Made by a program: the position numbers and the translations under genes
Part shown: positions 5,710-19,811 of the stretch, piece by piece
Numbering within the stretch: the first letter of the stretch is position 1
How the letters are laid out: each line of letters starts with the position of its first letter
Notes under the pieces: model-generated
What the model saw: the letters and a program-made list of their open reading frames with translations, nothing else
Databases searched by the model: none
Told to the model about the DNA's origin: nothing
IMG/VR virus record: IMGVR_UViG_3300032462_000072
Location: 1-26,019 of that record
Origin: a virus
Length of the DNA: 26,019 nucleotides
Reading direction: 5' to 3' (one strand)

Positions 5710-5715
5710 TTTTGA

Positions 5716-5773: not shown

Positions 5774-5789
5774 TGCGGTGGGAAGTTTG

Positions 5790-6170: not shown

Positions 6171-6201
6171 GTACCTTGACGAAGAATTAATATAGGTATA
6201 T

Positions 6202-6232: not shown

Positions 6233-6294
6233 CCGATATACCTATACTATCAACTTTTCATTCGGCATCGCTACCCTATACTATCAACTTTTGA

Positions 6295-6348
6295 CAAAAA
6301 AAGACTCCCCGCACGGTGATTGCATATCGACCTCGTGCGCGGGGAGTC
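6295..6348 (-). terminator. Intrinsic terminator after 6365-6493
   Basis: Leftward strand: a 12-13-bp GC-rich stem (GACTCCCCGC... at 6348-6334 with ...GCGGGGAGTC at 6315-6303) followed by T7. Confidence 0.9.
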
Positions 6349-6364
6349 CATGAAGTGATTCGGG

Positions 6365-6493
6365 TTAAACCATCTCCCCCCTGCATTGGAGTCTGTGGAG
6401 AGTCTCCAGTTGTCTCGTCAACACACGGATGCGAATCTCGATCCGCATCTTTGATGCGTTCAAGACGACGAGTTTGTTCTCGATGTCCATCAT
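6365..6493 (-). CDS. Small early helical protein, coupled to 6490-6645
   Basis: 42 residues: M-M-D-I-E-N-K-L-V-V-L-N-A-S-K-M-R-I-E-I-R-I-R-V-L-T and on to G-E-M-V, a single amphipathic, coiled-coil-like helix. The start ATG 6493 overlaps the upstream stop (ATGA) and is preceded 3 bases away by AAGGGGGG, a usable ribosome binding site; a second ATG follows directly at 6490. No known family. Confidence 0.6.
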   Translation of the reverse strand: MMDIENKLVVLNASKMRIEIRIRVLTRQLETLHRLQCRGEMV

Positions 6494-6645
6494 GCACCCC
6501 CCTTCTTCTTTGCGGTCAGACCCATCTTCTTCAGTTGCGGAATGATCCGCAGGATGAAGTACTTGCGTTCCTTGTCGAACTGGTTCATCGATTCCAGTCC
6601 ACGGGTGCGGGAGGGGGATTTCACGGTGGGGGTTTGAGACTTCAT
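6490..6645 (-). CDS. Leaderless early peptide with TVKSPSR tag (51 aa)
   Basis: 51 residues: the tag M-K-S-Q-T-P-T-V-K-S-P-S-R-T-R takes up almost a third of the protein, followed by a basic helix (F-D-K-E-R-K-Y-F-I-L-R-I-I-P-Q-L) and a C-terminal K-K-K-G-G-A. ATG 6645 is 7 bases after TACAAT. It heads a two-gene unit with 6365-6493. Function unknown; because it is so short it is a good reference for the tag. Confidence 0.7.
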   Translation of the reverse strand: MKSQTPTVKSPSRTRGLESMNQFDKERKYFILRIIPQLKKMGLTAKKKGGA

Positions 6646-6681
6646 ACTTGGGATTGTAGGGGGTCTGTGTCCCGTTGTCAA
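6646..6681 (-). promoter_or_regulatory. Leaderless early promoter for 6490-6645
   Basis: Leftward: TTGACA (6681-6676), 17-base spacer beginning ACGGGACACAGACC, TACAAT (6658-6653), 7 bases, ATG 6645. Confidence 0.85.
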
Positions 6682-6717
6682 GTGCATGGTGCAAGAATTA
6701 ATATAGGGGTATATCGG

Positions 6718-6737
6718 TTATCCACAAGTTATCCACA
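6718..6737 (+). promoter_or_regulatory. Two consensus DnaA boxes, 11-bp phased
   Basis: TTATCCACA at 6718-6726 and 6729-6737, in the opposite orientation to the triplet at 6202-6232 and with the same 11-bp period. They are flanked on the left by AAGAATTAATATAGG (6693-6707), the same AT-rich block as beside the first cluster. Confidence 0.8.
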
Positions 6738-6815
6738 ATATACCCTACCCCCTTAACTATCAACATTTGAGACAGCAACACACACCCATATGCACCACAT
6801 ATAGACACATATAAG

Positions 6816-6897
6816 GGACGGATGTAGGGGTTCTCTACATCTGTCCTTGAACAGTGCTGGGGGGTTTTGGGTACCCATGCCGCCTAGACGCTAGCAC
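6816..6897. other. Hairpin-rich non-coding stretch
   Basis: The stretch 6738-7050 has no convincing gene. It holds a 12-bp stem (GGACGGATGTAG 6816-6827, CTACATCTGTCC 6835-6846, one G-T) with a 7-base loop, and a second possible fold closed by GTGCT (6854-6858) and AGCAC (6893-6897) around GGGTACCC. Neither is followed by a T-run. It could be part of an origin, a packaging signal or an RNA; nothing decides between these. Confidence 0.5.
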
Positions 6898-6911
6898 AGA
6901 AGTACCTACCC

Positions 6912-7022
6912 TTCAGCATAACTAATTTTTTCGCAAAAAAACCAAATATCCATATCTAAAAATTTTTTTAAATATTTTTCCCCGTATTTTGCAAATTTCC
7001 CGCAATTCCCCGCAATTCCCCT
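6912..7022. other. AT-rich tract with short direct repeats
   Basis: Long A and T runs from 6926 to 6980, then CCCGCAATT written twice in tandem (about 6998-7017) preceded by GCAAATTTCC. It lies between the DnaA boxes and the divergent junction at 7258-7263 and would melt easily. No gene seen. Confidence 0.6.
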
Positions 7023-7050
7023 TTATGCTCTCTGTTTCCCTTACTACTTC

Positions 7051-7224
7051 TTAGAACCCCGCCACGAAAAGACCCCACCAATTCATCACCCATCGAATCT
7101 GGGCGTAAAGCAGGAAGATCATCATACCGAGGGCCTGCAAACACACAAATGTGAATGCCCCAAACATGATCCACTCCAGAGGTTTGGACATTATAAAGTT
7201 GTCGATAAAGTCTTTCTTTTGCAT
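7051..7224 (-). CDS. Leaderless small membrane protein (57 aa)
   Basis: M-Q-K-K-D-F-I-D-N-F-I-M-S-K-P-L-E-W then two hydrophobic segments (about residues 19-40 and 45-57: M-F-G-A-F-T-F-V-C-L-Q-A-L-G-M-M and W-V-M-N-W-W-G-L-F). Not recognised; it may span the inner membrane once or twice. The start lies 6 bases after TAGAAT, and there is no Shine-Dalgarno sequence, so the mRNA should be leaderless like the rest of the early array. It is the first leftward gene after the divergent junction with the late module. It lacks the T-V-x-S-P tag. Confidence 0.65.
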   Translation of the reverse strand: MQKKDFIDNFIMSKPLEWIMFGAFTFVCLQALGMMIFLLYAQIRWVMNWWGLFVAGF

Positions 7225-7258
7225 AGGAGTATTCTATATGAATAATAAGGAATGTCAA
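7225..7258 (-). promoter_or_regulatory. Leaderless early promoter for 7051-7224
   Basis: Leftward: TTGACA (7258-7253), 16 bases, TAGAAT (7236-7231), 6 bases, ATG 7224. The spacer is AT-rich and lacks the CGGGACA block of the other early promoters, so it may escape their shared control. It lies back to back with the late promoter at 7263. Confidence 0.75.
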
Positions 7259-7262
7259 GTAT

Positions 7263-7270
7263 TATAAATA
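7263..7270 (+). promoter_or_regulatory. T4-type late promoter, leaderless start for 7277
   Basis: TATAAATA followed after 6 bases (TATTGT) by ATG 7277. No ribosome binding site. In T4 transcription starts about 5-7 bases after this octamer, so the start codon is at or next to +1. Confidence 0.8.
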
Positions 7271-7276
7271 TATTGT

Positions 7277-8803
7277 ATGAAAACCTTTAAGCAATTTTTA
7301 CTTGAGTTGTATGATCATTTGGGTGAGGAATTACCATGGGATTTGACTGATGAAGTTCCAGAAGAAGATAGAAGCGACCTGACAACTCTGAGAGGATTGC
7401 ACCACGAACCCAAGGATTCAGGTCTAGTGTCTACCAGACTACCATATAGACGAGGTGAAAAAGAATCGTATGCTCATGATTTGCATGGTGTGAACAGACT
7501 CACTGTGGGACTTGATTTAGAGGGAAACGTAAATTATGTTTCAAAAAAACTTCAACAATTTTTGCGTCCTGCCTCTTCTACTACACTCCCGAAACATTCT
7601 TGGCAAGCGACAAGTGGTAAATTTGTGAAAGGAGAAAGCCCCATGGACACAGCTAAGAGATCGCACGAATTTATTGTTGGAAATCAAGAACATCATATAG
7701 CAAGATATGAAAAAAGTTTTGGTGAACTGGCAGAACGAAGCAAGTCATGGTATACAGGAGCAGGCGCAATAGGTAATAGATTTGCTAAAACATATGATGT
7801 ACATCCTCATGTTGTTGCTGCCGTAATAGCAAGTCAGTCACCAGGAACAGACTGGAATAGAAATGTAAGCAATGCCGAAAGACTTATTCATACTTACACA
7901 ACTCAGCAAAATACTCAAACCAATCAAAAAATGGTAACTGCTGCCGATTACGTATTTCACGATCATCGTAAAAACAAGAAAAATCAATATATCGATAAAG
8001 AAGGCAATGTCACAACAAATCCAAAGGAGTATGTTATACACACAGAGCACCAAGAATTAAAATCCGCTGTTCTTGGGACTGGGGGAAAACATCCAAGATT
8101 GAAGGACATGAAAAATTCTAGAGAAAAGGCTGCCTGGATTAGACTGTATGATACTTCCCATCACGATTCACGACATAGAGAAATAACACCAGAGGGAGAT
8201 TTTGGAGATTTTGTGCAAACTAAAGCTGGACAGAATGCAAAAATTGGTTGGGGGTCTTTTAATATGATTGCAAATGGAATAGATGCCCTTGAATCTGTAA
8301 ATCATGACGGTAGTCTTAACATGAATAAATTATCAAAATCTTTAGGGAAGGCGCACAAAGTAAGAAGTTTTTATAACAATCAAGTTAACCCAAATGCAAA
8401 CGACGTAACTGCGGACACTCACATGGGGGCAGCATCTACATTAGACACATCTTTGAGTCAAAAATCCCCTGAAATAAATGACATGTTTACTGCTCCCCCG
8501 AATCGTCGTAGTGGTCAGGGAGGACTATATGCTCATGTTGCTACTGCAACTCGTGAGTTGGCAAAAAGAAGAGGATATCGCCCATCATCAGCACAAAGTC
8601 AAGTATGGGACGCAGAAAAAGCACTTAAAGATGCATCTTCTGATGAAACCAACCAAACAAACAGGGACAATCTAATACGACACGGACTAGGACAAATTAG
8701 TGCCGCCGAACTTAGAAGAAAATTTGATAAAAACAATCCTGTGGCACAACCTGCGTGGAGCAAAACTAACACCAGCGCAAATAATATCAGTACATTCTTA
8801 TGA
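7277..8803 (+). CDS. Late protein with capsid-targeting peptide; HhH-GPD-like region
   Basis: 508 residues. The first ten, M-K-T-F-K-Q-F-L-L-E, resemble the T4 internal-protein targeting peptide, and L-L-E fits the prohead protease signature L/I-x-E, so the protein is probably packaged into the prohead and trimmed. In the body, about residues 176-198 (V-V-A-A-V-I-A-S-Q-S-P-G-T-D-W) and 345-385 (K-V-R-S-F-Y-N-N ... D-V-T-A-D-T-H-M-G-A-A) resemble phage proteins with a helix-hairpin-helix glycosylase-like fold, in which a loop of the type v-D-t-H carries the catalytic aspartate. That relationship is my recollection of motifs, not a search result. If correct, this would be a DNA-repair or base-modifying enzyme carried in the virion. 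First gene of the rightward late module. Confidence 0.8.
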   Translation: MKTFKQFLLELYDHLGEELPWDLTDEVPEEDRSDLTTLRGLHHEPKDSGLVSTRLPYRRGEKESYAHDLHGVNRLTVGLDLEGNVNYVSKKLQQFLRPASSTTLPKHSWQATSGKFVKGESPMDTAKRSHEFIVGNQEHHIARYEKSFGELAERSKSWYTGAGAIGNRFAKTYDVHPHVVAAVIASQSPGTDWNRNVSNAERLIHTYTTQQNTQTNQKMVTAADYVFHDHRKNKKNQYIDKEGNVTTNPKEYVIHTEHQELKSAVLGTGGKHPRLKDMKNSREKAAWIRLYDTSHHDSRHREITPEGDFGDFVQTKAGQNAKIGWGSFNMIANGIDALESVNHDGSLNMNKLSKSLGKAHKVRSFYNNQVNPNANDVTADTHMGAASTLDTSLSQKSPEINDMFTAPPNRRSGQGGLYAHVATATRELAKRRGYRPSSAQSQVWDAEKALKDASSDETNQTNRDNLIRHGLGQISAAELRRKFDKNNPVAQPAWSKTNTSANNISTFL

Positions 8804-8815
8804 AAACAAAAGGAA

Positions 8816-8823
8816 TATAAATA
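8816..8823 (+). promoter_or_regulatory. T4-type late promoter for 8828
   Basis: TATAAATA, then GAAT and ATG 8828: only 4 bases. AAGGA at 8810-8814 is 13 bases from the ATG, too far for efficient use. Confidence 0.75.
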
Positions 8824-8827
8824 GAAT

Positions 8828-9700
8828 ATGAAAACATTTAAACAATTTATAGAAGAGTCTCATTTAGAATCAGCAGCGCATGTTCATTATAAACAAGATT
8901 ATAGTGAACGAAGACGTGATAGACGCGATGCAGAGAAAGCAAATATAGCAAGTATTATGGCTAGTATGGACCGATCTCGTGTTTCTTCTCCTGTGGAAGA
9001 TGAGTTTGAATCAGGAGAATTAGAGGAATTGGGGAAAGTAGGAAATATAGAGGCACCCGACTACGTTGAGTTTCAGAAGACTGCTGCCGCTAGTGCTCCT
9101 GCTCCTGTTGCCGGTGATGATGACAAAAAATACACTTCTACTATTTCTCCCGAAGATTTTGAAAAGCATGCTGATATTTTCACTCAAGCAACAGCAAAAA
9201 GTAATGCTCATATTGAAAATCCAGAGTTATTAGATATAATCAATAGACACAAAATTACAACTGCTAGACAAATGGTAAAAGGTATTATCAGCGATCATAG
9301 AGAAAATACTAAAGTATGGGAACCAGATATAGTAGATCCAAGTATAGGTAAATATGTTACTAGAAAAAAAACCACAGAAGATGGGTGGACAAGAGGTAAA
9401 TATATAAGGTCGCTTCTAGATCCAGTTCAAGCAAAAAAAGATATGACACGAGAAGTAGCAAAACAGTTTCATGTAATAGAGCAACATCATATGCATGAAT
9501 ATGATATTACAAACTCTCTCAACGTGGACACAGAAAGTTCGGAGGACATACATGATCTGTTTGCACGTAATGACGAATTAAAATTAAAAAATAAATTACA
9601 TAAAGTTATTCCTCCTTTTGACACATTATCTCAAAAAGAACAAGATAGACATACTGGGCATGCTGAACTTGCTATGCAATTGGCTAATTCTGTACCCTGA
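8828..9700 (+). CDS. Late protein with capsid-targeting peptide
   Basis: 290 residues, unrecognised. N-terminus M-K-T-F-K-Q-F-I-E-E, nearly identical to that of 7277-8803, with I-E-E as likely cleavage site. A charged stretch (Y-S-E-R-R-R-D-R-R-D-A-E-K) follows, then an Ala/Pro linker near residue 80-95 and a helical, His-rich C-terminal half (H-V-I-E-Q-H-H-M-H-E-Y). The late promoter and targeting peptide make it a good candidate for an internal head protein ejected with the DNA. It follows 7277-8803 by 24 bases. Confidence 0.8.
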   Translation: MKTFKQFIEESHLESAAHVHYKQDYSERRRDRRDAEKANIASIMASMDRSRVSSPVEDEFESGELEELGKVGNIEAPDYVEFQKTAAASAPAPVAGDDDKKYTSTISPEDFEKHADIFTQATAKSNAHIENPELLDIINRHKITTARQMVKGIISDHRENTKVWEPDIVDPSIGKYVTRKKTTEDGWTRGKYIRSLLDPVQAKKDMTREVAKQFHVIEQHHMHEYDITNSLNVDTESSEDIHDLFARNDELKLKNKLHKVIPPFDTLSQKEQDRHTGHAELAMQLANSVP

Positions 9701-9712
9701 ATAATGTAATAT

Positions 9713-9720
9713 TATAAATA
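9713..9720 (+). promoter_or_regulatory. T4-type late promoter for the RNA at 9725
   Basis: TATAAATA directly after the stop of 8828-9700; the predicted start is at 9725-9726, exactly where a 9-bp closing stem begins. Confidence 0.75.
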
Positions 9721-9724
9721 ATAT

Positions 9725-9835
9725 GTACTAGGGCATACCCAATCGCTTTACGCTATTGGTGTGTTAAAGGGAATTTCGCTACCTCAGTACCGGCATAGTG
9801 GAAGACGCTAGGCTTAGAACCTAGCGTTTTCTTTT
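9725..9835 (+). ncRNA. Putative structured RNA with intrinsic terminator
   Basis: About 110 bases between a late promoter and a terminator, without an open frame. GTACTAGGG (9725-9733) can pair with CCTCAGTAC (9782-9790), with one A-C mismatch and one G-T. Inside, CCAAT pairs with ATTGG (extended by CATA/TGTG around a bulged C), forming a hairpin. The 3' end is an 8-bp stem ACGCTAGG (9805-9812) with CCTAGCGT (9820-9827) and TTTTCTTTT. I could not match it to a known riboswitch, ribozyme or tRNA. It may be a free small RNA or, with read-through, the leader of 9864-10247. Confidence 0.6.
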
Positions 9836-9863
9836 GGGTATACATATATATAAGGAAATGCAT

Positions 9864-10247
9864 ATGTTTAACTCTAATATACCTGACGATATTTTAAGAC
9901 AATATAGTGAATCTAATGATTTTGGATTCAGTACAGTCGATTCTAATGAATTAAACTCGATATTATCTCCAATTGGTCAAAGTGAAGAAATGGTTGCGAT
10001 TAAAGAGAAATTGGAGTTGATATTGGCCATGAATTCGACATGTGATGGGGCTTTGCAAGTAAAAGCACAATATGATATATTATTAAAAGCACGATTATTA
10101 GAGATAGAGAGGACTATAATCCCTCTTTTACTCAATTTAAAGAAAAATACCGAAAAAGATTACATACATTGGCCAGGTGGTGCAAGAAATGCACAATGTG
10201 ACCTTCAGATCCATAAAATCGTCAATCTTACCAGAAATAATCTTTAA
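9864..10247 (+). CDS. Late protein of unknown function
   Basis: 127 residues: M-F-N-S-N-I-P-D-D-I-L-R-Q and a mostly helical body (I-K-E-K-L-E-L-I-L-A-M; L-K-A-R-L-L-E-I-E-R). Not recognised. ATG 9864 is chosen because AAGGA lies 7 bases upstream; longer versions starting before 9860 have no ribosome binding site. It lies just after the terminator of the candidate RNA, so it needs read-through or a promoter not seen; a regulated terminator is possible. Confidence 0.7.
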   Translation: MFNSNIPDDILRQYSESNDFGFSTVDSNELNSILSPIGQSEEMVAIKEKLELILAMNSTCDGALQVKAQYDILLKARLLEIERTIIPLLLNLKKNTEKDYIHWPGGARNAQCDLQIHKIVNLTRNNL

Positions 10248-10274
10248 ATTTTTAATATATCCTAGGATTTCCCA

Positions 10275-10282
10275 TATAAATA
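10275..10282 (+). promoter_or_regulatory. T4-type late promoter for 10316
   Basis: TATAAATA 33 bases before ATG 10316; here the transcript has a normal leader with AGGAG 8 bases before the start. Confidence 0.75.
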
Positions 10283-10315
10283 ATGTAAACTTGAGGTACC
10301 ATAGGAGTTTTCTTT

Positions 10316-10702
10316 ATGTCGACATCAACGTATAAGTTTATAAAATTTATAAAAAAAGATTGTAGAAAATACAACATTTCTGTGCAATTCACTAAATGGA
10401 AAAATGTGGACGACGAAGAGGATGGAAATATCGAAGGGTATTTCGAAACTCCAACAAAAAATAAAAAAGGAAAAATAAAAGTAGCAGCTGGAGTTCCAAG
10501 AACAGTCTGGTTGCATACTCTTGCACATGAATACGCTCATTTTGAATATTGGAAGGGAAACCACAAGTTTAGAAAAAGTCATATTATGGACGAAAAACGA
10601 ACAGAAAAAAGAGCTTTAGAATTGTTAGTGGAATGGAAGCTTCCAATAAACATCAAAGTTCGCAAGAAACAATCACGAAAATATCTCAAATCCTTGACTT
10701 AG
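10316..10702 (+). CDS. HExxH zinc metallopeptidase-like protein
   Basis: 128 residues. The motif L-A-H-E-Y-A-H (residues 69-75) is the HExxH zinc-binding and catalytic signature, and E93 or E97 in M-D-E-K-R-T-E-K-R-A could supply the third ligand, the layout of small gluzincins of the ImmA/IrrE type. The protein is basic at both ends and has no signal peptide, so it would act in the cytoplasm or in the virion. Expressed from its own late promoter with a good ribosome binding site. Substrate unknown; small phage zincins are common and mostly uncharacterised. Confidence 0.7.
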   Translation: MSTSTYKFIKFIKKDCRKYNISVQFTKWKNVDDEEDGNIEGYFETPTKNKKGKIKVAAGVPRTVWLHTLAHEYAHFEYWKGNHKFRKSHIMDEKRTEKRALELLVEWKLPINIKVRKKQSRKYLKSLT

Positions 10703-10739
10703 GATTTGTTATATATATTATATACAAAGGAGATAACAT

Positions 10740-10919
10740 ATGGCTGAAAACGGAATAACTGGAAAATCTATAGGAAGTGGTGGAAGTATGAGAGGATCTG
10801 CAAGTCCTTTATCTGGAAAAGGGGCTCCACCTCGTGGTAGTGGTAGAGGCGACGGTCGAGCTGAAACTTTAAGAAGATCAGAAGAATCTAAAGAAAATTC
10901 ACGAAAGAAACCACGATAA
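10740..10919 (+). CDS. Small basic Gly/Ser-rich protein ending SRKKPR
   Basis: 59 residues, low complexity: M-A-E-N-G-I-T-G-K-S-I-G-S-G-G-S and on to S-R-K-K-P-R. Too short and disordered to classify. The ribosome binding site AAGGAG is the strongest in the window. Its C-terminus matches that of the next gene (S-S-R-K-K-P). Confidence 0.75.
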   Translation: MAENGITGKSIGSGGSMRGSASPLSGKGAPPRGSGRGDGRAETLRRSEESKENSRKKPR

Positions 10920-10925
10920 TAAGAT

Positions 10926-11102
10926 ATGAATAAAAGCAATGCAAGTAAGTCTGTTTATTTTAAACCTTTACCTTCATCAAAGAGTGCATCGTATATAGTA
11001 ATAGAAAATGGAGTTGCTATTCGTAAACCTAAGGAAAGTGGTCCTAGTAGAACGTTACGTAATATGGAATTTAGTATAAAATCATCTAGAAAAAAACCAT
11101 AA
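10926..11102 (+). CDS. Small basic protein ending SRKKP
   Basis: 58 residues: M-N-K-S-N-A-S-K-S-V-Y-F-K-P-L-P, a short hydrophobic segment A-S-Y-I-V-I-E-N-G-V-A-I, and the C-terminus I-K-S-S-R-K-K-P. It lies 6 bases after 10740-10919 and shares its C-terminal pentapeptide, suggesting the same partner or compartment, perhaps DNA in the head. Function unknown. Confidence 0.65.
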   Translation: MNKSNASKSVYFKPLPSSKSASYIVIENGVAIRKPKESGPSRTLRNMEFSIKSSRKKP

Positions 11103-11103
11103 T

Positions 11104-11397
11104 ATGCCTCTATATTCTTTTACATGTAATGATTGTTTTTTTGGTTTTGATGAATTATTAAGTATAGATAATAGAAAAAATCCGATTAATTGTGGTTGTC
11201 CTAGTTGCGGAAATAAATCTATAGTATCTAAAATAAATACTATTGCGATTTTTAGTGATACTACTTTAACTGCAAACTCAAAAACAAAAGGTGATTGGAA
11301 TAAATTGATGTCAAAAATGAAAAAAGGAACACCAAAACATTTACACGAAAATTTAGATCAAGCATCTTCTAGAACTGGTAGAAGGACTTTGGGATAA
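11104..11397 (+). CDS. FmdB-like zinc-ribbon protein
   Basis: 97 residues. M-P-L-Y-S-F-T-C-N-D-C-F-F-G-F-D-E-L-L-S-I and later C-P-S-C-G give the C-x2-C / C-x2-C zinc ribbon at the N-terminus typical of FmdB-type small proteins; the C-terminal half is basic and helical (W-N-K-L-M-S-K-M-K-K-G) and ends S-R-T-G-R-R. The family is found in bacteria as putative regulators and in many phages with unknown role. The start is one base after the stop of the preceding gene. Confidence 0.7.
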   Translation: MPLYSFTCNDCFFGFDELLSIDNRKNPINCGCPSCGNKSIVSKINTIAIFSDTTLTANSKTKGDWNKLMSKMKKGTPKHLHENLDQASSRTGRRTLG

Positions 11398-11401
11398 TAT
11401 T

Positions 11402-12316
11402 ATGTATGACAAAAGAACAGAAATACTACAATATTTAAAAGAGTCAGCATTCGCTGATATCTATAATCAAGAATATAATTCTTCAGAATATAATAATAAA
11501 GAACGGCTGTTTGGTGATGTAGGTCTGGGTAGAATTAATGATTTTCTTGCTACAGGTACTATGGTGGCGGGCGCTCTTGGGGCCCATGTTTACTCTAGAA
11601 AATTAAACAAGTTACGTAGTCAACTTAGTATAGATAAAACTAATCTTGGTCCCAAACCTACATTTAAAGTCGAAAAAGCCCCGACCGATTTAGAAAAGAG
11701 CAACTTGGATGCATATCAAAATAAATATAATTTAATAGACGCGAACTATAATACAGCTTCTCTAAAAGCTAAGAAATATCTTAAGTGGGCTAGTAACGTG
11801 GAAACCGGCGGGCTAATCGCAAATGCTGCTATGTTAGCTTATAGGGATCATATGGACAAAAAAGGAATTATTCCATCTAAATCATCAAATTTAGGAGATA
11901 GATCACAATCGGCAATGCAACTTGCTATAGGGAACTTTGTTTCCGGAAAAAGAACAGGGGAAAGATCAGGCTTAATGGGGACAGGGAAAGGGATTGGTGG
12001 GCACTCGATTAGTAGTGTTGAACGTGCATTTTTGCCAGGCGGAAATACTCCTCTGGGTTATCTTACTTTAATGGGTGGTTCACGTCCTTGGATCAAACAA
12101 CTAGGCTCACTAGCTACTACTCAATGGGCAGGCAATGCCGCAGATGCTGCAGCATGGGGAATTGGTATGCCCGGAATTCCTTTCATATCACAACACATGA
12201 ATACAAAAGATCCATATGGCACATATTCTAGATTTGATATAGAACGAGGAGTTGGCGGAGAAGGATATCCATCAGCTCTAGAATTAATGGCAGCTTCTCA
12301 TGCTCGTAGAAATTGA
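11402..12316 (+). CDS. Putative virion protein, glycine-rich
   Basis: 304 residues, unrecognised. The N-terminus M-Y-D-K-R-T-E-I-L-Q-Y-L-K-E-S ends in L-K-E, which fits the prohead protease signature, so it may be a variant targeting peptide. Two moderately hydrophobic segments (residues about 49-64, G-T-M-V-A-G-A-L-G-A, and 138-152, G-G-L-I-A-N-A-A-M-L-A) and a Gly-rich C-terminal part (P-G-G-N-T-P-L-G-Y-L-T-L-M-G-G) suggest membrane contact, as expected of an ejected protein. It lies between small late genes in tight spacing. Confidence 0.7.
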   Translation: MYDKRTEILQYLKESAFADIYNQEYNSSEYNNKERLFGDVGLGRINDFLATGTMVAGALGAHVYSRKLNKLRSQLSIDKTNLGPKPTFKVEKAPTDLEKSNLDAYQNKYNLIDANYNTASLKAKKYLKWASNVETGGLIANAAMLAYRDHMDKKGIIPSKSSNLGDRSQSAMQLAIGNFVSGKRTGERSGLMGTGKGIGGHSISSVERAFLPGGNTPLGYLTLMGGSRPWIKQLGSLATTQWAGNAADAAAWGIGMPGIPFISQHMNTKDPYGTYSRFDIERGVGGEGYPSALELMAASHARRN

Positions 12317-12319
12317 TAT

Positions 12320-12505
12320 ATGAAAACCTTTAAAACATTATTAAAAGAAACTCTAAGTAATGTCGAGGGTAACGATAATAAAACAGAGGACCATATATTT
12401 AAAGTGGCAAAAATTGCCAACGAAACAGTAAACGAATTCATGTCCTCTTCTCATGGTGAAGAATTACACAAAAGTGTTAAATCAATCTTATCAGAAAAAG
12501 CTTGA
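12320..12505 (+). CDS. Short protein with capsid-targeting peptide
   Basis: 61 residues: M-K-T-F-K-T-L-L-K-E-T plus a helical acidic body (D-H-I-F-K-V-A-K-I-A-N-E-T-V). L-K-E is the expected cleavage site, leaving a ~51-residue mature peptide. It starts 3 bases after the previous stop and lacks a clear ribosome binding site, so it is probably translated by coupling. Comparable in size to T4 internal head peptides. Confidence 0.7.
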   Translation: MKTFKTLLKETLSNVEGNDNKTEDHIFKVAKIANETVNEFMSSSHGEELHKSVKSILSEKA

Positions 12506-12530
12506 TTTCTCCTTAGAAATGGTATATAAT
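12502..12530 (+). promoter_or_regulatory. Sigma70-type promoter for the nuclease at 12529
   Basis: TTGATT (12502-12507), 17 bases, TATAAT (12525-12530). Seven bases later is an in-frame GTG (12538), the same spacing as in the leaderless early genes. The -35 overlaps the stop of 12320-12505. Confidence 0.6.
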
Positions 12531-13197
12531 GATTTGCGTGGGAAACTTCAGACACATACCGAATTCCTTAAATATTACACTAGACCGTGTAGAAACAAAA
12601 GGTAATCGTTTCTACACAACCCCAGATGGTTCATTTCCATCTGTTACCACAGTGACGGGGTGGGAAAATCAGAAGTTCTTTACTAAATGGAGAAAAGAGA
12701 ATCCAGAAGAAGCTTCTCGTGTGTGTGTAAGAGGAAATAAATTACACTCACTTATTGAGAGTTATTTAAATAACGAACAAGTATCAAATAAAAACGAAAG
12801 TCCAGAAGAAGAATTATTCACCTTAATGAAGGGGAATATAGATAAAATAAACAACATCCGGGCATTAGAATGCCCCCTTTATAGTAAAATTTTAGGACTA
12901 GCCGGAAGAGTAGATTGTATTGCAGAGTACAATAAAGAATTGTGCGTAATTGACTTCAAGGGATCTACTAAAAATAAGACAAAAGAGAATATAGAAAATT
13001 ACTTTCTACAAGCTACAGCGTATGCCTTAATGTGGCAAGAACGAACAGGCGAAGCATGTAAAAAAATATGTGTGATTATAGGGACGGAAGCCGGTATGTC
13101 GCAAGTTTTTCTAGAAAATACCATAGATTATGTTAAACGATTAAAAGAGACCATAACCCTTTATAGGAAATATCATGAAAATACTAAGAAAATCTGA
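12529..13197 (+). CDS. PD-(D/E)XK exonuclease-like protein
   Basis: 222 residues from ATG 12529, or 219 from GTG 12538. Motifs: G-R-V-D-C-I (D129), V-I-D-F-K (D142, K144), then Q-A-T-A-Y (Q161) form the PD-(D/E)XK nuclease core in the order seen in RecB-like and MGME1-like exonucleases; R-G-N-K-L-H-S near residue 68 fits the upstream helix of that group. It probably degrades or processes DNA ends in the cytoplasm. ATG 12529 lies within the TATAAT of the promoter at 12502-12530, so transcripts from there should start translation at GTG 12538; late read-through RNA could use ATG. The 3' end overlaps the next gene by 23 bases. Confidence 0.75.
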   Translation: MICVGNFRHIPNSLNITLDRVETKGNRFYTTPDGSFPSVTTVTGWENQKFFTKWRKENPEEASRVCVRGNKLHSLIESYLNNEQVSNKNESPEEELFTLMKGNIDKINNIRALECPLYSKILGLAGRVDCIAEYNKELCVIDFKGSTKNKTKENIENYFLQATAYALMWQERTGEACKKICVIIGTEAGMSQVFLENTIDYVKRLKETITLYRKYHENTKKI

Positions 13198-13633
13198 AGT
13201 AAATATACCCAATAGTAGAACTTGGGTTGCTTGTAATGATGACTCCAAATCAAAATATTATAAAGGTGCATTTTTAGAAAAATATGGGGGAGAATTCATT
13301 AAAAGTGGAAGATATGTCAAATGGCAAAAAATACAACCACCAGCCGAGATATATGTTCCTAGAAGATTGCTTGCAATCGTGGATCCCACAGGAAAGGTGA
13401 TAGGAATTGATCATATGACTAATTATTGTATAGAACACAAATTATCAAAATCTGCTTTATATGAGGTATTAAGAGGAACTCGTAAACAATATAAAGGGTA
13501 TACCGCTATTCCTGATCCAAATGCTATTATACCAGAGCCACTACCACCAATATTTCGATCAAATAGCCCTCGCCCTGACACCGTGATGATATCTCCGGCC
13601 TCTATAAATGTCGATCCAGATATAGTGACTTGA
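13175..13633 (+). CDS. Orphan NUMOD-like DNA-binding protein
   Basis: 152 residues. Residues about 70-115 (D-P-T-G-K-V-I-G-I-D-H-M, C-I-E-H-K-L-S-K-S-A-L-Y-E-V-L-R-G, Y-K-G-Y-T-A) match the nuclease-associated modular DNA-binding helix-turn-helix that usually sits at the C-terminus of phage homing endonucleases. No GIY-YIG or HNH catalytic motif is present in the rest, and the tail is Pro/Ser-rich. It could be a remnant of a homing endonuclease or a DNA-binding regulator. ATG 13175 lies inside the preceding gene and is preceded by AGGAAA. Confidence 0.6.
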   Translation: MKILRKSEVNIPNSRTWVACNDDSKSKYYKGAFLEKYGGEFIKSGRYVKWQKIQPPAEIYVPRRLLAIVDPTGKVIGIDHMTNYCIEHKLSKSALYEVLRGTRKQYKGYTAIPDPNAIIPEPLPPIFRSNSPRPDTVMISPASINVDPDIVT

Positions 13634-13656
13634 CACACTGGTAGACTATTTATTAT

Positions 13657-13664
13657 TATAAATA
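13657..13664 (+). promoter_or_regulatory. T4-type late promoter, leaderless start for 13672
   Basis: TATAAATA, 7 bases (TTCCTGA), ATG 13672. No ribosome binding site in front of the ATG. Confidence 0.8.
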
Positions 13665-13671
13665 TTCCTGA

Positions 13672-16600
13672 ATGAATGAAGGACTATCCAATAGAGCTTT
13701 ATATCACGCAAAATCTGGAAGTTTTGCTGGTTTTTACGTGTCAGTTCCTGTATCATTACTAGACGAAAATCTTCGAAAACTGTTCGATAATGTTCGTTCG
13801 ACCATGAAAACGGTCGAGGAAGAGTCCGAAGGTTGGTTTAGTTTAGAAGAATATGTTAATTATGTTGAAAATATAGAAAATATACCACAATATATCAGTG
13901 AAGATATTTCGATTGCGACACGGATGAAATTAAGAAGAGCTGCTAAGCGAACTTCTATTAGAAGAGCACGAAAAAGATATATCAAACGAGGAATTAGAAA
14001 AAATACAAAAGCACTCGCAAAAAGAGCTTATACACAAATCAAAACACTATTAAGAAAAAGACTTACGGGAGGTAGGTCTTGGTCTTCTTTGCCCTTGGCT
14101 TCTAGAGTTAGAATAGATAATGCCATTAACAAAAGAAGACCAATTTTAAAAAGACTGGTCAAAAATAGAATTACTAAAATGCCTAGTCAAGAAACTAAAA
14201 GATTACAAAGAGTTCGATTGAATAATTCGTTTGAACCAACTAATTTGAATTTGTTTTTAGAAGCAAGAAGTGCAAAACTAGAAAAAGAAGCCAACAAAGA
14301 CTCTCATGCAAGAGGCAGAGAATCTGTTAAAAATGATCCGTCTAAATTTTTAAGTAAAGTTATGGTAGTAAAAAAGCAGGTTAACAATAAACCTGTAGAA
14401 ATGTTGATTGATAAGGCATCATTTAAATCCCATATTCATAGTCGAGTAGCAGGAGACGGTAAGGTTACTATGAAAACAGCTAAGGATATCACTTCGAAGG
14501 ATTTTTTCAGACAAACAAAAACATCTATGCATCTTTTTGGAGAATTAGATAACACTAAAAAAGAGAGAAAAACAAATATGAGTACCCCAATTAAAACATC
14601 AAACGAAACACCAGAAGAATTATTAAAGAAACAACAAGAGCAAGAAAATAAGAACAAACAAGCACAGTTGTCTGGTAGTTCCACAGATTATGATGCTACT
14701 GATATAGAAAAATCTATTACTACAATATTCCAATTGAAAGCTAGTGATCCTGCTGGATATCAAGGATTTTTGAGTCAATTATCTAGTGCTCAACAAGACT
14801 ATAAGTCCCAAAAATTTGAGGCGGAAAGATTTGATGATCAAAAAGACGCTAGAACAAATGTGGTAAAATATCTAAAACAAAATGGAATATCTCCAGAATT
14901 CATTGAAAAAATATTATCACAAGAAGCTTTAATAACTACAGCAGATAGAGTTATTAATGGAGTTCAAGTCGATTCAGAAGGAAACGAGACTGATTACCCA
15001 TTTGGTAAATTAAGTGAACATGTATTTTTGAATATTGGTAGATCATCTTATAGCACTTCTCCTGATTACTTAGGAACCAATACATCCCCAAGATCTGATA
15101 TATTGGCGATTAGCCGAGAAACACTAATAAAGGTATATGGGGACCAAATCAAAACAGAGAAAGACTTTATAACATATGCTCAGGAATATGTTACAAATCA
15201 ATCTATTGTTGATGGAAGCACAACATACTTAAATTCAACAGGAAAATCAATAAAGGTATCGAAGAAGGATGTAACAGATGCAATAGAATATATGAAAAAG
15301 GGGAATGTGTCTGCTTCAGAAGGAATAATTCCCATTTCCATGAAAATGGGAGCAGCTAGATATCTTTCTGGTACAATCGATGCTGATGCTCAGAGTTTGT
15401 TGCTCTATTGTGCGGATGCTATGGAAGATTCTTCTGTCACAGAAACGATCAGTGGAATTATGAAAGAAATTACATCAGATCTTTCTTTGAAGAAAATAAA
15501 AATCAGAGGAAAATTTGAAGATAATCTTAAGTATGATAATGCCTTGGCAAAATCAGTTAAAAAGGCACAAGATACCATAAACAATATTATGTTGCCTAAG
15601 ATACTAAAAATAACAGGAATGAAAGAACGCCTAATAGAATCAGCATTGTCTGGGTCTTATAAATTTTCTCATGATTCTTTAGCTAGAGCAAGTTATGTAT
15701 TAACTGCAAAGGAAGATGGTTCGTCTCCTACATTATCTGAAATAAATTTGGAGTATGTCAAAAACATAGCAAATGATGTTGAGTTTTATTTTGGAAGCAA
15801 ATCGTCTTCTCTTCGTACTGCTCAAGAGAACATTTTTCGAGAAAATTATAACAAAGAACTAAATCGGTTGTATGTAGAAAAAATTCTAGATCCAGAAACT
15901 CTAAGTAAAGATGATTTAGATAAGGCGAAGGTCAAAATCGAAAATGAGTTTCTAAAAGAAACAATAGAATTAGAAAAGAAAATAGACGACGAAAAAGAGC
16001 GTACTACATTAACTCCAGAGGAAGAACAATCAGCATCAAAAAGTGTTAAACCAAAAACTAGTAAGGGGTTTTCCTTCTCTGGACTTAGTAAATACCAAGA
16101 GAAAAAACTAGAGAGTATACGTCAGGATCTAATAGATCAAAAAGCAAGACAACAAGTATTTTCTAGCAATATAACCGAAAGACAGAAAGCTTTACTAAAG
16201 GGTAACATACGACCAGTACTCCGAAGTGTTTGGCAAATTCTAAATATCGAATCCAAATCGGTTTCTCTTGGGGAAAATACAAATAAATTTACTCATAATT
16301 TGTTGTTAAAATCTCTTTTAGAGAACAATTACATAGAAAACGACAAAATATCACTTAAAGATAATTTATCAGATATAGCTAAAAAAGAAATAGACCAAAT
16401 CAGGTGTGATACTTACAATCTGTCGTTGGAATATGCTGGTGCTGATCTAGAAAAATTAATGACCCTATATGACACCTCTATTAATCGATTATCGCCAAGT
16501 AAGATAGATTTAACAGAATATGCGACTGTTCCTTTTACTGGAAAATACAATGCTATCACGATTAATAGTAAAGTTCATAATGTCCCAATTTCTATGAGTG

Positions 16601-16863
16601 AATACTATATAAATATCGGACAAACATTCCTCGCAGAAGCTAAGAAAAGAAACTATAGAAAAGAATATGATAATTATCAGGGAACAAAAGAACAAATAGC
16701 AAATAGGACAAAGAGAGTACTTGCCAGAAGAATATTAGCAAAGATGGGCAGAGTACGCAAAGGAGACAAAAAAGATGTCGATCACAAAGACGGAAATCCA
16801 CAAAATAATTCACAAGCAAATCTAAAAGTAATGGATAGAAGTGCTAATCGAGCTAAGCATTAA
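13672..16863 (+). CDS. Large late protein: basic N-terminal region, HNH-like C-terminus
   Basis: 1063 residues, the longest gene here. Residues ~83-180 are extremely basic (R-R-A-A-K-R-T-S-I-R-R-A-R-K-R and later K-R-R-P-I-L-K-R), suggesting DNA contact inside the head. The middle is charged, with E/K/Q-rich linkers near 315-330 and 770-800, and a segment S-G-S-Y-K-F-S-H-D-S-L-A-R-A-S-Y near 660. The last ~30 residues, D-V-D-H-K-D-G-N-P-Q-N-N, L-K-V and R-S-A-N-R-A-K-H, match an HNH-type zinc-free nuclease motif with conserved D-H, N and H. I take it as a virion protein carrying a nuclease-like tail; whether it cuts is unknown. Leaderless late start. Confidence 0.75.
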   Translation: MNEGLSNRALYHAKSGSFAGFYVSVPVSLLDENLRKLFDNVRSTMKTVEEESEGWFSLEEYVNYVENIENIPQYISEDISIATRMKLRRAAKRTSIRRARKRYIKRGIRKNTKALAKRAYTQIKTLLRKRLTGGRSWSSLPLASRVRIDNAINKRRPILKRLVKNRITKMPSQETKRLQRVRLNNSFEPTNLNLFLEARSAKLEKEANKDSHARGRESVKNDPSKFLSKVMVVKKQVNNKPVEMLIDKASFKSHIHSRVAGDGKVTMKTAKDITSKDFFRQTKTSMHLFGELDNTKKERKTNMSTPIKTSNETPEELLKKQQEQENKNKQAQLSGSSTDYDATDIEKSITTIFQLKASDPAGYQGFLSQLSSAQQDYKSQKFEAERFDDQKDARTNVVKYLKQNGISPEFIEKILSQEALITTADRVINGVQVDSEGNETDYPFGKLSEHVFLNIGRSSYSTSPDYLGTNTSPRSDILAISRETLIKVYGDQIKTEKDFITYAQEYVTNQSIVDGSTTYLNSTGKSIKVSKKDVTDAIEYMKKGNVSASEGIIPISMKMGAARYLSGTIDADAQSLLLYCADAMEDSSVTETISGIMKEITSDLSLKKIKIRGKFEDNLKYDNALAKSVKKAQDTINNIMLPKILKITGMKERLIESALSGSYKFSHDSLARASYVLTAKEDGSSPTLSEINLEYVKNIANDVEFYFGSKSSSLRTAQENIFRENYNKELNRLYVEKILDPETLSKDDLDKAKVKIENEFLKETIELEKKIDDEKERTTLTPEEEQSASKSVKPKTSKGFSFSGLSKYQEKKLESIRQDLIDQKARQQVFSSNITERQKALLKGNIRPVLRSVWQILNIESKSVSLGENTNKFTHNLLLKSLLENNYIENDKISLKDNLSDIAKKEIDQIRCDTYNLSLEYAGADLEKLMTLYDTSINRLSPSKIDLTEYATVPFTGKYNAITINSKVHNVPISMSEYYINIGQTFLAEAKKRNYRKEYDNYQGTKEQIANRTKRVLARRILAKMGRVRKGDKKDVDHKDGNPQNNSQANLKVMDRSANRAKH

Positions 16864-16872
16864 GGAGTTTAA

Positions 16873-17511
16873 ATGCAATCTGAAGTTGATTTAATAAACG
16901 GCATACAATGGAACCAGTGGTTAGAGTTTGGTATGGCTTTGTCGTTGATTGGTATTGGTTATTTTGTAGGATTAGTAAAAAAGCAATTTGTCAACAAAAA
17001 GAAGGCACTAACTGTTTCTTGGTCTTGTCATAGTCAAATACACGAACTGTTGACAGAATTGAGAGTAAATACCGATGCGTCTAGAGCGCAAATAATCCAG
17101 TTCCATAATGGGGAATATTTCATGGATGGTATATCCATGAAGAAGATGTCTCTTACCCACGAATCTTTAGCAAAAGGCATATCCCAAGAAGCGGACAAAA
17201 TGACCAATATACTTATATCCTTGTTTACTCCTTTGATGGTAAAGGTATTAGAAGATAAACCTGTTATTTACAGAACAGTAGACGATGAACATGGAATATG
17301 CAGAAATATCATGCAAACCAACAATACTGTTGCATATGCAGTTTTACCACTAAAACACAGAAATTCAGTAAGTGGTTATGTTATTCTCAACTGGTGCAAC
17401 GATTATAAGTCAAAACGACTAAATGCAGAGGAAATTGGAAAATTTTTAGAGGATTCTAGAGATTACACAGAAGTATATTTAAAGGATATTCTACATAAAG
17501 AGAACTCCTAG
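16873..17511 (+). CDS. Membrane-anchored protein with GAF-like domain
   Basis: 212 residues. One membrane span at ~17-35 (L-E-F-G-M-A-L-S-L-I-G-I-G-Y-F-V-G-L-V), followed by basic K-K-Q-F-V-N-K-K-K, so the bulk is cytoplasmic. Residues ~70-190 (I-I-Q-F-H-N-G-E-Y-F-M-D-G, M-S-L-T-H-E-S, Y-A-V-L-P-L, G-Y-V-I-L-N-W) have the strand pattern of GAF-like sensory domains found in several phage proteins. No output domain follows. It has a good ribosome binding site (AAGGAG) and follows the large protein by 9 bases. A role at the host membrane is likely; ligand unknown. Confidence 0.6.
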   Translation: MQSEVDLINGIQWNQWLEFGMALSLIGIGYFVGLVKKQFVNKKKALTVSWSCHSQIHELLTELRVNTDASRAQIIQFHNGEYFMDGISMKKMSLTHESLAKGISQEADKMTNILISLFTPLMVKVLEDKPVIYRTVDDEHGICRNIMQTNNTVAYAVLPLKHRNSVSGYVILNWCNDYKSKRLNAEEIGKFLEDSRDYTEVYLKDILHKENS

Positions 17512-17515
17512 ATAT

Positions 17516-17523
17516 TATAAATA
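17516..17523 (+). promoter_or_regulatory. T4-type late promoter for 17539
   Basis: TATAAATA 15 bases before ATG 17539; the short leader contains AAAGGGA as ribosome binding site. Confidence 0.75.
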
Positions 17524-17538
17524 GATAAAGGGACTACT

Positions 17539-17841
17539 ATGAACGACAATCAACTTAACTTTTTTAAAGAAAATATCATAAGAAAATACTGCACTCGACT
17601 AGACGAAGAGATTGTGAATCCCGAAAATAAGGGTACTATGAAGAGGAAGGACGAATTAAAAAGAGATAAAATAGCTGCTAAAACCAAACCTAAACCCATA
17701 AAAGGGGATACGGACGATGAATCAAGACATAGAATAGCGACATTTATTTATATTCGTAATAGGAAGGCAGGAAGGGACAGAAAAAACACACAGGCTCGAG
17801 CTAAACGTAAGATAAACAAGGAAAACAAAAAGAAGGACTAA
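17539..17841 (+). CDS. Small highly charged protein
   Basis: 100 residues, about one third K or R, with acidic islands (R-L-D-E-E-I-V-N-P-E; D-T-D-D-E-S-R) and a basic C-terminus (R-A-K-R-K-I-N-K-E-N-K-K-K-D). Probably disordered and possibly DNA- or RNA-binding. Not recognised. The stop overlaps the next ATG by one base (TAATG), so the two are translated together. Confidence 0.7.
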   Translation: MNDNQLNFFKENIIRKYCTRLDEEIVNPENKGTMKRKDELKRDKIAAKTKPKPIKGDTDDESRHRIATFIYIRNRKAGRDRKNTQARAKRKINKENKKKD

Positions 17842-18824
17842 TGAAAAAATTCAAAACAATAATATCAAGTTTACAAGAAACTGCACAATCCTTTGGTGGA
17901 TCAGTATTTAACGGTTTCAGTGACCCAGCACCACGTTCAGCATTCAGTGAAAAGGGGATTCATTATGCATATGATAACCCCGAACAATTACACCGATTGA
18001 ACGCTTTTATCTACTCCTTTTTAGGTGGTTCTTATATAGATCCACGAGAACCACTAAAAGAACTAGCTGGGAGAATTGCTCAACTCGGTCTTTCTATGAG
18101 ATTTGACAATAATGTTAGGTTAATACCAGGGCACAACGTTATACCAGTCGGGGTATTTGGAGACAAATTTGGTGTGACTCCTACTACTGATCTGACAAAA
18201 GAACCGTTCGATACTGGTGCTGATTATCCTGATATGTTTCTCCATTTTGAGTTAGCTCAAACTGATAGAGGATATGTTTTTAATCAAGTTCAAATATCAT
18301 CAGAGGGATGCACGGATTGCCCTGGTGAGGTAGGTCAAGAAGAGGACAATACTATATCCTCGGATACTTCTTTGAATGACATAACTAATAAATCACAAGA
18401 CACTGAAGCTTATAATATTCAGAACTCTAGAGTTCCTGATCATTTAGTTGCACGTCAAGCTTTTGGTCAAAATTTACTAGATTCGATGAAAGAAGATTTA
18501 GATTTATTGGACGAAGAGGCCTTTTTAATAGAAAAAAGAGAAATTAAAGATTCAGCTAGAGTAGTAGAATTATTCTTATCTAAAAGTTCTGATGCTTCTA
18601 AAACCATACTTGGACCAATTTATGCATCTTTACAAAGTATGAAAAAACGAAATAAATATACTTCTGAATCAGCTTTAAGTAGATTTTCTTTTGCTGTCAA
18701 TGGTGCTCTAAGAAGTTTAAAAAAGATTGGTAAAAATGTGGTCTTAACAGATTTGGAAAGAACCAGAGTTACTAAACGATTATTACACAATTTCGAAAAA
18801 CACGTTAAGACTATAGAAGATTGA
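17841..18824 (+). CDS. Putative virion protein with variant targeting peptide
   Basis: 327 residues, unrecognised. M-K-K-F-K-T-I-I-S-S-L-Q-E-T resembles the targeting peptides of the other late proteins and ends in L-Q-E. The body has a mixed fold (F-L-G-G-S-Y-I-D-P-R-E-P-L; P-G-H-N-V-I-P-V-G-V-F-G), a C-x2-C pair near residue 158 (C-T-D-C) and a helical C-terminus. GAAGGA precedes the start by 4 bases. Position among late genes supports a structural or packaged role. Confidence 0.65.
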   Translation: MKKFKTIISSLQETAQSFGGSVFNGFSDPAPRSAFSEKGIHYAYDNPEQLHRLNAFIYSFLGGSYIDPREPLKELAGRIAQLGLSMRFDNNVRLIPGHNVIPVGVFGDKFGVTPTTDLTKEPFDTGADYPDMFLHFELAQTDRGYVFNQVQISSEGCTDCPGEVGQEEDNTISSDTSLNDITNKSQDTEAYNIQNSRVPDHLVARQAFGQNLLDSMKEDLDLLDEEAFLIEKREIKDSARVVELFLSKSSDASKTILGPIYASLQSMKKRNKYTSESALSRFSFAVNGALRSLKKIGKNVVLTDLERTRVTKRLLHNFEKHVKTIED

Positions 18825-18831
18825 TATATTC

Positions 18832-19203
18832 ATGTATCCAAAACTGAATGAGAACAATTTTTTAATATATCTAATTAAAAATTCCTCATTCATAGAAATA
18901 CAAGATTTATATGAAGATCTGACCCGAATAAAGTATATAAAACGATTGTTGATACGATATCAGAAGACGGGGGACCTAAAAGAACGATTGTTATTAAATC
19001 ATATTATCATACTACAAAATATATTTGGTGCGGAAGTATGTGTTAGGATTTTGTTTTATAAGATACCAAAAGAATTACATTGTATGTTAAAGTCGTTTTT
19101 GGATTATTTAGAATATATTCCAGAAAGTATTCCAGAAACTAAAATAGATGAAATACCAAAAGATCACAGAATAGACAAAATATTGAATAGCCTCCATGAG
19201 TAA
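18832..19203 (+). CDS. Late protein of unknown function
   Basis: 123 residues, rich in I, L, Y and K, predicted helical (K-R-L-L-I-R-Y-Q-K-T-G-D-L-K-E-R-L-L-L), without signal peptide or known motif. It begins 8 bases after the preceding stop and overlaps the next gene by 8 bases; no clear ribosome binding site, so coupling is likely. Confidence 0.6.
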   Translation: MYPKLNENNFLIYLIKNSSFIEIQDLYEDLTRIKYIKRLLIRYQKTGDLKERLLLNHIIILQNIFGAEVCVRILFYKIPKELHCMLKSFLDYLEYIPESIPETKIDEIPKDHRIDKILNSLHE

Positions 19204-19627
19204 ACCATATCTTAAAACTTCAAATACCAATTCATTACGAAGACTTGTATCTGCTTTTACTATGTGGAGATATGTAAAGGCTATAACCAAAGAATTTATC
19301 GATACTGATGCATTTAAATTAGGAATAATCGACAAAGATGGTAAATATCTAAAAGATCCCAATAACTTATCAAACAAAGAAAACAAGGCACTAACCCCCT
19401 TTGATGTTATGATTTTTGATTTAAAGAAGTTATTTTCAAAAATTCCTAATCCCAGTATTCGGGTCAAATTAAAGTATATTCCAACAGCGATACCATTGCT
19501 CGCAGAAGAAGCGGCAAAATATGGTGCTGATGAAGCAGAAATATGCGAGGGCCTTTTGTTATATCTACACGAAAAAGGTTTTGATATAGATATATTAGAG
19601 GAAGATCCGAATGAAGACATTTTTTAA
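19196..19627 (+). CDS. Conserved-looking phage protein
   Basis: 143 residues. The order R-R-L-V-S-A-F-T-M-W-R-Y-V-K-A, A-F-K-L-G-I-I-D-K-D-G-K-Y-L and L-T-P-F-D-V-M-I-F-D-L-K-K-L-F reminds me of a small protein found in several T4-type marine phages, without known role. It is soluble, helical, with an acidic C-terminus (E-E-D-P-N-E-D-I-F). Both ends overlap the neighbours (8 and 17 bases), indicating a tight operon. Confidence 0.65.
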   Translation: MSKPYLKTSNTNSLRRLVSAFTMWRYVKAITKEFIDTDAFKLGIIDKDGKYLKDPNNLSNKENKALTPFDVMIFDLKKLFSKIPNPSIRVKLKYIPTAIPLLAEEAAKYGADEAEICEGLLLYLHEKGFDIDILEEDPNEDIF

Positions 19628-19811
19628 ATTGTTACTAGAACTTGCAAAAAAGAACACATCTGATGTAATATCAGAAGAGGGTGGTTTATCGGCAGGAGCA
19701 ATGACTACCAGTACTGGAATCGCAGGACTTGGAGATGATGCTAGAGAAGGTAATGTGGTTGTAAGGAAAAAACCAAAGAATATCTTACGCAGAAAGAAGA
19801 GAATCTTATGA
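19611..19811 (+). CDS. Short protein with capsid-targeting peptide
   Basis: 66 residues: M-K-T-F-F-K-L-L-L-E-L-A-K-K, with L-L-E as expected cleavage site, then a Gly/Ala/Thr-rich middle (E-E-G-G-L-S-A-G-A-M-T-T-S-T-G-I-A-G-L-G) and a very basic end (R-K-K-P-K-N-I-L-R-R-K-K-R-I-L). It looks like a small DNA-binding internal head peptide. GGAAG lies upstream within the preceding gene; overlap with both neighbours. Confidence 0.7.
   Translation: MKTFFKLLLELAKKNTSDVISEEGGLSAGAMTTSTGIAGLGDDAREGNVVVRKKPKNILRRKKRIL

Follow-up and report, generated by a model that had tools for sequence, protein, structure and literature searches.

Bacteriophage T4 carries internal proteins that are injected into the host (PMC9026906, PMC12373910). 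Three of them, Ip1-3, all inhibit GmrSD restriction enzymes and have only their leader in common, by which ip genes of T-even phages have already been found (PMC12373910). The capsid-targeting sequence (CTS) itself is known, and so is the view that T4-like phages can load varied proteins by means of it; in IPIII, genetics assigned residues 4 and 7 to targeting and residues 8 and 10 to processing (PMC9026906). In the part of the literature covered here we found no reports of a CTS in marine T4-like phages. We analyzed a virus fragment of 26,019 bases from IMG/VR (record IMGVR_UViG_3300032462_000072; this whole stretch is referred to as the window), in which several genes between positions 7277 and 19811 begin with peptides of this type. 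We consider it very probable that these genes belong to a T4-like myovirus and make up its cargo locus, where at least five unrelated proteins with a T4-type CTS would be packed into the head, trimmed and ejected with the DNA.

The first-pass annotation of the window had quoted six such N-termini, and all of them were found where it had placed them (genes are named by their first position):

7277-8803 (+): gene 7277, 508 amino acids (aa); tag MKTFKQFLLE (7277-7306), then LYDH
8828-9700 (+): gene 8828, 290 aa; tag MKTFKQFIEE (8828-8857), then SHLE
11402-12316 (+): gene 11402, 304 aa; N-terminus MYDKRTEILQYLKE, then SAFA; LxE end, outside the CTS register, membership unsupported
12320-12505 (+): gene 12320, 61 aa; tag MKTFKTLLKE (12320-12349), then TLSN
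17841-18824 (+): gene 17841, 327 aa; longer tag MKKFKTIISSLQE (17841-17879), then TAQS
19611-19811 (+): gene 19611, 66 aa; tag MKTFFKLLLE (19611-19640), then LAKK; strongly basic C-terminus

The products of 7277, 8828, 12320 and 19611 start with M-K-T-F-x-x-[F/L]-[L/I]-x-E, which is the register of the T4 CTS: as read from AF158101, IPII and IPIII begin with MKTYQEFIAE and IPI with MKTFKEF. The register M..[FY]..[FL][LI].E occurs in 4/27 window genes compared to a shuffled expectation of 0.0057 (Poisson p ~4e-11); when the first 40 residues of each window protein were shuffled in 20,000 trials, the maximum was one match. The window tags keep the CTS residues 4 and 7 (targeting) as well as 8 and 10 (processing), and the proposed likeness to the CTS of the T4 internal proteins is supported by this match. 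The four in-register tags differ in synonymous codons, so that what they have in common is the peptide and not the DNA, and the bodies of the tagged window proteins differ from one another.

The tag of 17841 is three residues longer than the other tags. Two contigs are related to the window, L121, which is identical over 13 kb, and L122, which is 78% identical at the marker gene. In L122, the orthologue of 17841, found without selection for the tag, begins with MKTFKQLKKYISE, then SESFGG, and a homologue in L008, likewise free of MKTFK selection, has MIKFREFISE at an internal methionine. Six further homologues in viral contigs combine an MKTFK start with E at position 10 (e.g. MKTFKQHIKE, MKTFKQMLKE and MKTFKGYLNE), where only E10 is unselected because these loci were fetched by the MKTFK pattern. 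The tagged homologues thus support 17841 as the probable fifth tagged protein. As a candidate for a sixth, 11402 ends in L-K-E, has neither the register nor a supporting homologue, and is not counted. In L122 (10359-12620), a single 754-aa open reading frame (ORF) with a long insertion corresponds to gene 19196 plus the 3' part of gene 19611, and other tag-like starts, MKNFKEILKSKTILE and MRSFRQYLTE, occur there, which indicates that the cargo set turns over.

The tag is a modular peptide on unrelated bodies. A scan of viral contigs with MKTFK[QE]F[ILV]xE returned at least 120 stretches, while a control pattern with the tag codons in reverse order gave 0 matches. Among the matches listed, 99 proteins carry the pattern at their start, and their bodies form 50 clusters without mutual similarity; whole-gene duplication therefore does not explain the tag. 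When only MKTFK was fixed and residues 6-10 were left free, E was at position 10 in 42 of 95 ORF starts, and the full tag was present at 21 of these 95 starts compared to none of seven internal occurrences. At the DNA level, the tag had 50 distinct forms in the 50 clusters: T3 uses all four codons, and the codons of K2, F4, K5, F7, I/L8 and E10 vary. Such free use of synonymous codons makes a signal in DNA or RNA unlikely. Among 49 body representatives, Pfam found S-adenosylmethionine (SAM) lyase, ADP-ribosyltransferases, zeta toxin/AAA kinase, GNAT and others, including the cell-wall hydrolases phage lysozyme, glucosaminidase and lytic transglycosylase. The commonest tagged family and largest cluster, with 25 of the 99 proteins among the matches listed (L012, L048, L055 and 22 further loci), is SAM lyase (PF23780), an anti-restriction enzyme.

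Tagged proteins are also present in the virions of two related phages, S-CREM2 and S-SCSM1. For S-CREM2, mass spectrometry (MS) yielded 52 virion proteins listed with coordinates (PMC10665884). The pattern ^.{3}[FYL]..[FLY][LIMVF].E fits six of its 219 gene products, with ~0.1 expected from the internal rate, and five of these six were in virions: SAM hydrolase gp6, gp13, kinase gp14, gp136 and cytidylyltransferase gp154. The sixth, gp175 (55 aa), was not detected in the virions. Among non-structural products, 5/6 tagged compared to 23/189 untagged ones were virion proteins (p = 2e-4, or p = 6e-4 when permuted within length classes); counted the other way, 5/28 virion proteins and 1/167 others were tagged. 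With the narrower window pattern M..[FY]..[FL][LI].E, inspection placed 3/3 tagged proteins of S-CREM2 and 1/1 of S-SCSM1 in virions. The NMNAT of S-SCSM1, the one clearly metabolic protein of its virion, begins with MKSFLQFLKE. The protein cluster to which it belongs, T4-GC190, is represented in the virion of S-SM1 (PMC3037559), and the member of this cluster in S-SSM7 is tagged (VKSFGQFLTE). In the stretches of the S-CREM1 record covered here virion proteins are not marked, and S-CREM1 gave no third comparison with MS. A Cas9-like protein detected in S-CREM2 virions (OR473000, 7704-10313, minus strand; L126) has the tag motif shifted to residues 17-25 (LRFASFMAE); perhaps its start was annotated too far upstream.

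The tag is also associated with the prohead protease gp21. The gp21 family PF03420 is present in T4, S-CREM2 and S-SSM7, and was found in 11/35 tag-bearing fragments, among them each of the three that exceed 120 kb, compared to 2/35 control fragments selected solely by their DUF7178 domain. Both positive controls are T4-like contigs that themselves bear CTS-tagged genes, e.g. MKSFKQYLTE and MKSFKTFLLE.

The DUF7178 domain (PF23802) is carried by 7277, the largest cargo protein, at about residues 130-500 (68.3 bits, cut-off 27, E = 1e-18). With 508 aa and one recognised domain, 7277 is not a large multidomain chain of the kind seen in polyvalent proteins. A single-sequence search of viral contigs found no relatives of 7277, and an alignment of 7277 with three phage homologues retrieved at least 543 viral contigs with DUF7178. 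Among the best 80 of these, the proteins were ~470-3,491 aa long, and a clear CTS was seen in none. Three phages of 40-54 kb have homologues that lie inside larger proteins, one together with ART-PolyVal, one with a methyltransferase and one two genes from a portal gene; outside the window, DUF7178 appears mostly in large multidomain proteins. An AlphaFold model of 7277 built from 56 sequences (mean pLDDT 79) placed the queuine salvage enzyme DUF2419 in row 1 of a structure comparison (Z 8.0), followed in rows 2-24 by an unbroken series of the 8-oxoguanine DNA glycosylases Pa-AGOG and OGG1 (Z 4.4-7.0). Foldseek matches of the model in the PDB were not significant, and searching the PDB with the 7277 sequence gave no match. 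K361 (8357-8359) and D380 (8414-8416) are invariant in the 56 sequences and stand 19 residues apart, as do Lys249 and Asp268 in OGG1. An HhH-GPD motif had been suspected from the invariant pattern K...F..N...T.DTH before the model was made. The DUF7178 domain of 7277 is therefore likely to have an HhH-GPD glycosylase fold, and the most likely targets of the predicted glycosylase would be nucleotides or DNA bases that belong to the host or its defences.

That the tagged proteins are late, as the first-pass annotation had it, is supported by an excess of TATAAATA, a T4-type late-promoter-like box, with 10 copies in the window compared to 2.6 expected. Two boxes stand directly before 7277 and 8828:

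7263-7270 (+): TATAAATA box, just before 7277
8816-8823 (+): TATAAATA box, directly ahead of 8828; its distance to the ATG may be too short for it to serve this gene
17516-17523 (+): TATAAATA box, before the gene pair 17539-17841

The boxes at 7263-7277, 8816-8828 and 13657-13672 stop just 4-7 nt short of start codons. As T4-type late promoters, these boxes would give mRNAs that are leaderless or begin inside the gene.

We propose the following course of events. The cargo proteins would be made late, and the tag, as an amphipathic N-terminal helix, would dock on the prohead core through residues 4 and 7, so that the cargo is co-assembled into the core. A gp21-type prohead protease would then cut at the [L/I]-x-E end of the tag, and the trimmed cargo would stay in the head with the DNA during packaging. 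Ejected with the DNA into the next host, the cargo could act before phage gene expression, and in the case of 7277 the predicted delivery is that of an HhH-GPD-type glycosylase. For the phage of the window, we infer packaging, cleavage and delivery as well as the role of each cargo protein.

Other explanations of the common N-terminus were considered. It might be a translation-initiation or mRNA element, i.e. an A-rich start without meaning for the destination of the protein, as the first five codons are indeed A-rich and a TATAAATA box abuts the start in two genes. However, synonymous codons vary while the residues hold, and E10 is enriched where it was unselected; we give this explanation next to no credence. 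The peptide might instead direct proteins to another part of the virion, such as tail or baseplate, or to a membrane, and MS of whole virions does not tell head from tail. Yet register and key residues are the same as in the T4 CTS, the LxE end resembles gp21 sites, and the tag is associated with gp21-bearing records, which leaves only a small chance for a target other than the prohead core. It is also very unlikely that the tagged proteins are unpackaged or contaminants of virion preparations and owe their N-terminal likeness to gene duplication as a relic: although one tagged protein each of S-SCSM1 and S-CREM2 escaped detection, the bodies fall into unrelated clusters and the enrichment in virions persisted under length stratification.

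Several points weigh against a CTS-tagged cargo locus. The S-CREM2 pattern was written after the virion N-termini had been seen, and in S-SCSM1 a tagged protein of 106 aa was not detected in the virion, so that one of two tagged proteins was found there. The authors of the S-CREM2 study caution that CsCl-purified virions may carry contaminating abundant proteins (PMC10665884), and for this reason the link to virion MS is strong, not conclusive. A gene for a gp21-type prohead protease was searched for on the 26-kb window and not found; since no gp21, gp22 or gp23 is known on this fragment, the full packaging machinery is only presumed for its phage. From the up to six tagged proteins originally claimed, five hold up, and 11402 is left without register or independent support. 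Finally, the glycosylase fold of 7277 comes from one AlphaFold model with Z scores of 4-8 and no significant Foldseek match in the PDB.

The first-pass annotation had further expected enzyme-like proteins in the set and new anti-defence or takeover proteins among them. The former applies to 7277 with its glycosylase-like predicted fold; the bodies of 8828, 12320, 17841 and 19611 gave no functional match, and no relatives were found for the body of 8828. The latter is likely for the class, judging from T4 Ip1-3 and from SAM lyase as the commonest tagged family, and unproven for the window genes. The N-terminus of 8828 weakly matched PHROG 2667 'internal head protein' (E = 0.07). Like the T4 internal proteins, 19611 is small and basic. 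Its gene is close to the phrog_407 gene, and beside phrog_407 S-SCSM1 and S-CREM2 encode virion proteins identified by MS. We tried 19611 as a homologue of S-SCSM1 gp97 and S-CREM2 gp160; position and layout are alike, but with E = 0.3 at best this likeness is only suggestive. Gene 13672-16863 (+) codes for a protein of 1,063 aa that has an HNH domain at its C-terminus, and known phages match only that HNH part. Its homologue in L122 starts with MEISESNLLVEAAESGNFAAF, whose LLVE is LxE-like, and 13672 may be another virion-delivered protein.

A second N-terminal module, MxYLTNYYKNLxEQLQxxxNxLxxxLxE, recurs in 85 proteins with ~29 body clusters (L333-L381). Examples are:

L252, 5481-5840 (-) and 5878-7323 (+): second-tag proteins
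L254, starts at 5869, 7296, 10354 and 10877 (+): second-tag proteins

Within residues 23-38, [LIV]xE follows in 21/29 cluster representatives compared to 9% of control windows. gp21 is encoded in 14/33 second-tag records, and the second tag and the CTS are often on one contig; in isolated phages, a weak query of 29 residues gave no match to the second tag. The closest full-length DUF7178 relatives of 7277, L252:5878-7323 and L254:5869-7290, both lie on T4-like contigs that encode gp21 and, where 7277 has MKTFKQF, bear the second tag, clearly in L252 and more loosely in L254. The CTS and the second module might be two, or two of several, interchangeable N-terminal tags in a general tag-and-load system of environmental T4-like phages. 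In such a system a large shared pool of effector domains (SAM lyase, ADP-ribosyltransferases, kinases, HhH-GPD-type glycosylases) would move between phages and between delivery modes, either as tagged single domains or in polyvalent chains, and the DUF7178 protein would be a virion-delivered glycosylase directed against modified bases or defence nucleotides. We regard this broader scheme as tentative, with somewhat more doubt than belief.

From its gene content and its TATAAATA boxes, the phage of the window is taken as T4-like. No megablast match to the window was obtained in isolated phages, and the following two lineage genes have their best relatives in Kyanoviridae:

12529-13197 (+): PD-(D/E)XK exonuclease (phrog_298), 47% identical to cyanophage S-CREM1; T4-like marker
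18832-19203 (+): phrog_407 gene, best relatives in T4-like cyanophages; T4-like marker

The right three quarters of the window also encode a RuvC-like resolvase, a ribonucleotide reductase and ThyX. The ribonucleotide reductase (22660-25020, minus strand) is class II-like by Pfam and split by an apparent mini-intein ending in LVHNS; its homologue in L122 is 142 aa shorter (644 vs 786 aa). Unusually for a phage, 21550-22305 (-) encodes a trypsin-like serine protease whose N-terminus has a lipoprotein-like signal (VCCS). The left arm (1-7260) has a higher GC content (44-51%) and short genes, mostly on the minus strand and mostly preceded by a repeated block with TTGACA-like and TACAAT-like hexamers plus copies of CTATACTATCAACTTTT; this layout suggests an array of early-gene cassettes. 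The left arm also contains a tRNA-Lys (620-692).

As the tag is readable from sequence alone, it provides a means to list the injected effectors of abundant uncultured T4-like phages, in which nearly all such genes are annotated 'hypothetical'. It offers an explanation for SAM hydrolase, NMNAT and kinases in cyanophage virions, a matter left open in the respective papers. For DUF7178, a family present in at least 543 viral contigs, it suggests a testable role as an effector of glycosylase type that is delivered together with the DNA. The cargo is new, and so are the breadth of the census in environmental T4-like phages and the match with published virion proteomes.

Compared to T4 IPI, IPII and IPIII, the window proteins are alike in tag register, key residues, unrelated bodies and in being several per phage. 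No similarity of body sequence between them was found, and the window cargo is larger, partly enzyme-like (508 aa with a glycosylase-like domain) and from another phage group. The T4 ADP-ribosyltransferase Alt is likewise an enzyme packaged in the head, N-terminally processed and injected; its propeptide has seven residues (PMC9026906), and no Alt homologue was seen in the window. With the virion-associated non-structural proteins of S-CREM2, S-SCSM1 and S-SM1, the window cargo shares the kind of tag and differs in the cargo domains; the passages of the respective papers covered here do not mention a tag, and the word 'targeting' is absent from the text of the S-CREM2 paper. The NMNAT genes of S-SCSM1 and S-SSM7 share the genome region with the phrog_407 gene. 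7277 resembles the HhH-GPD glycosylases Pa-AGOG and OGG1 and DUF2419 in its predicted fold and in the invariant Lys/Asp pair 19 residues apart, and is unlike them in its ~10% identity and predicted virion delivery. Polyvalent proteins of phages and conjugative elements are also predicted to be delivered with DNA (PMC5512222). Elsewhere DUF7178 shares one chain with ART-PolyVal or methyltransferase domains as in such proteins, whereas in 7277 it stands alone behind a short tag and not in a giant multidomain chain.

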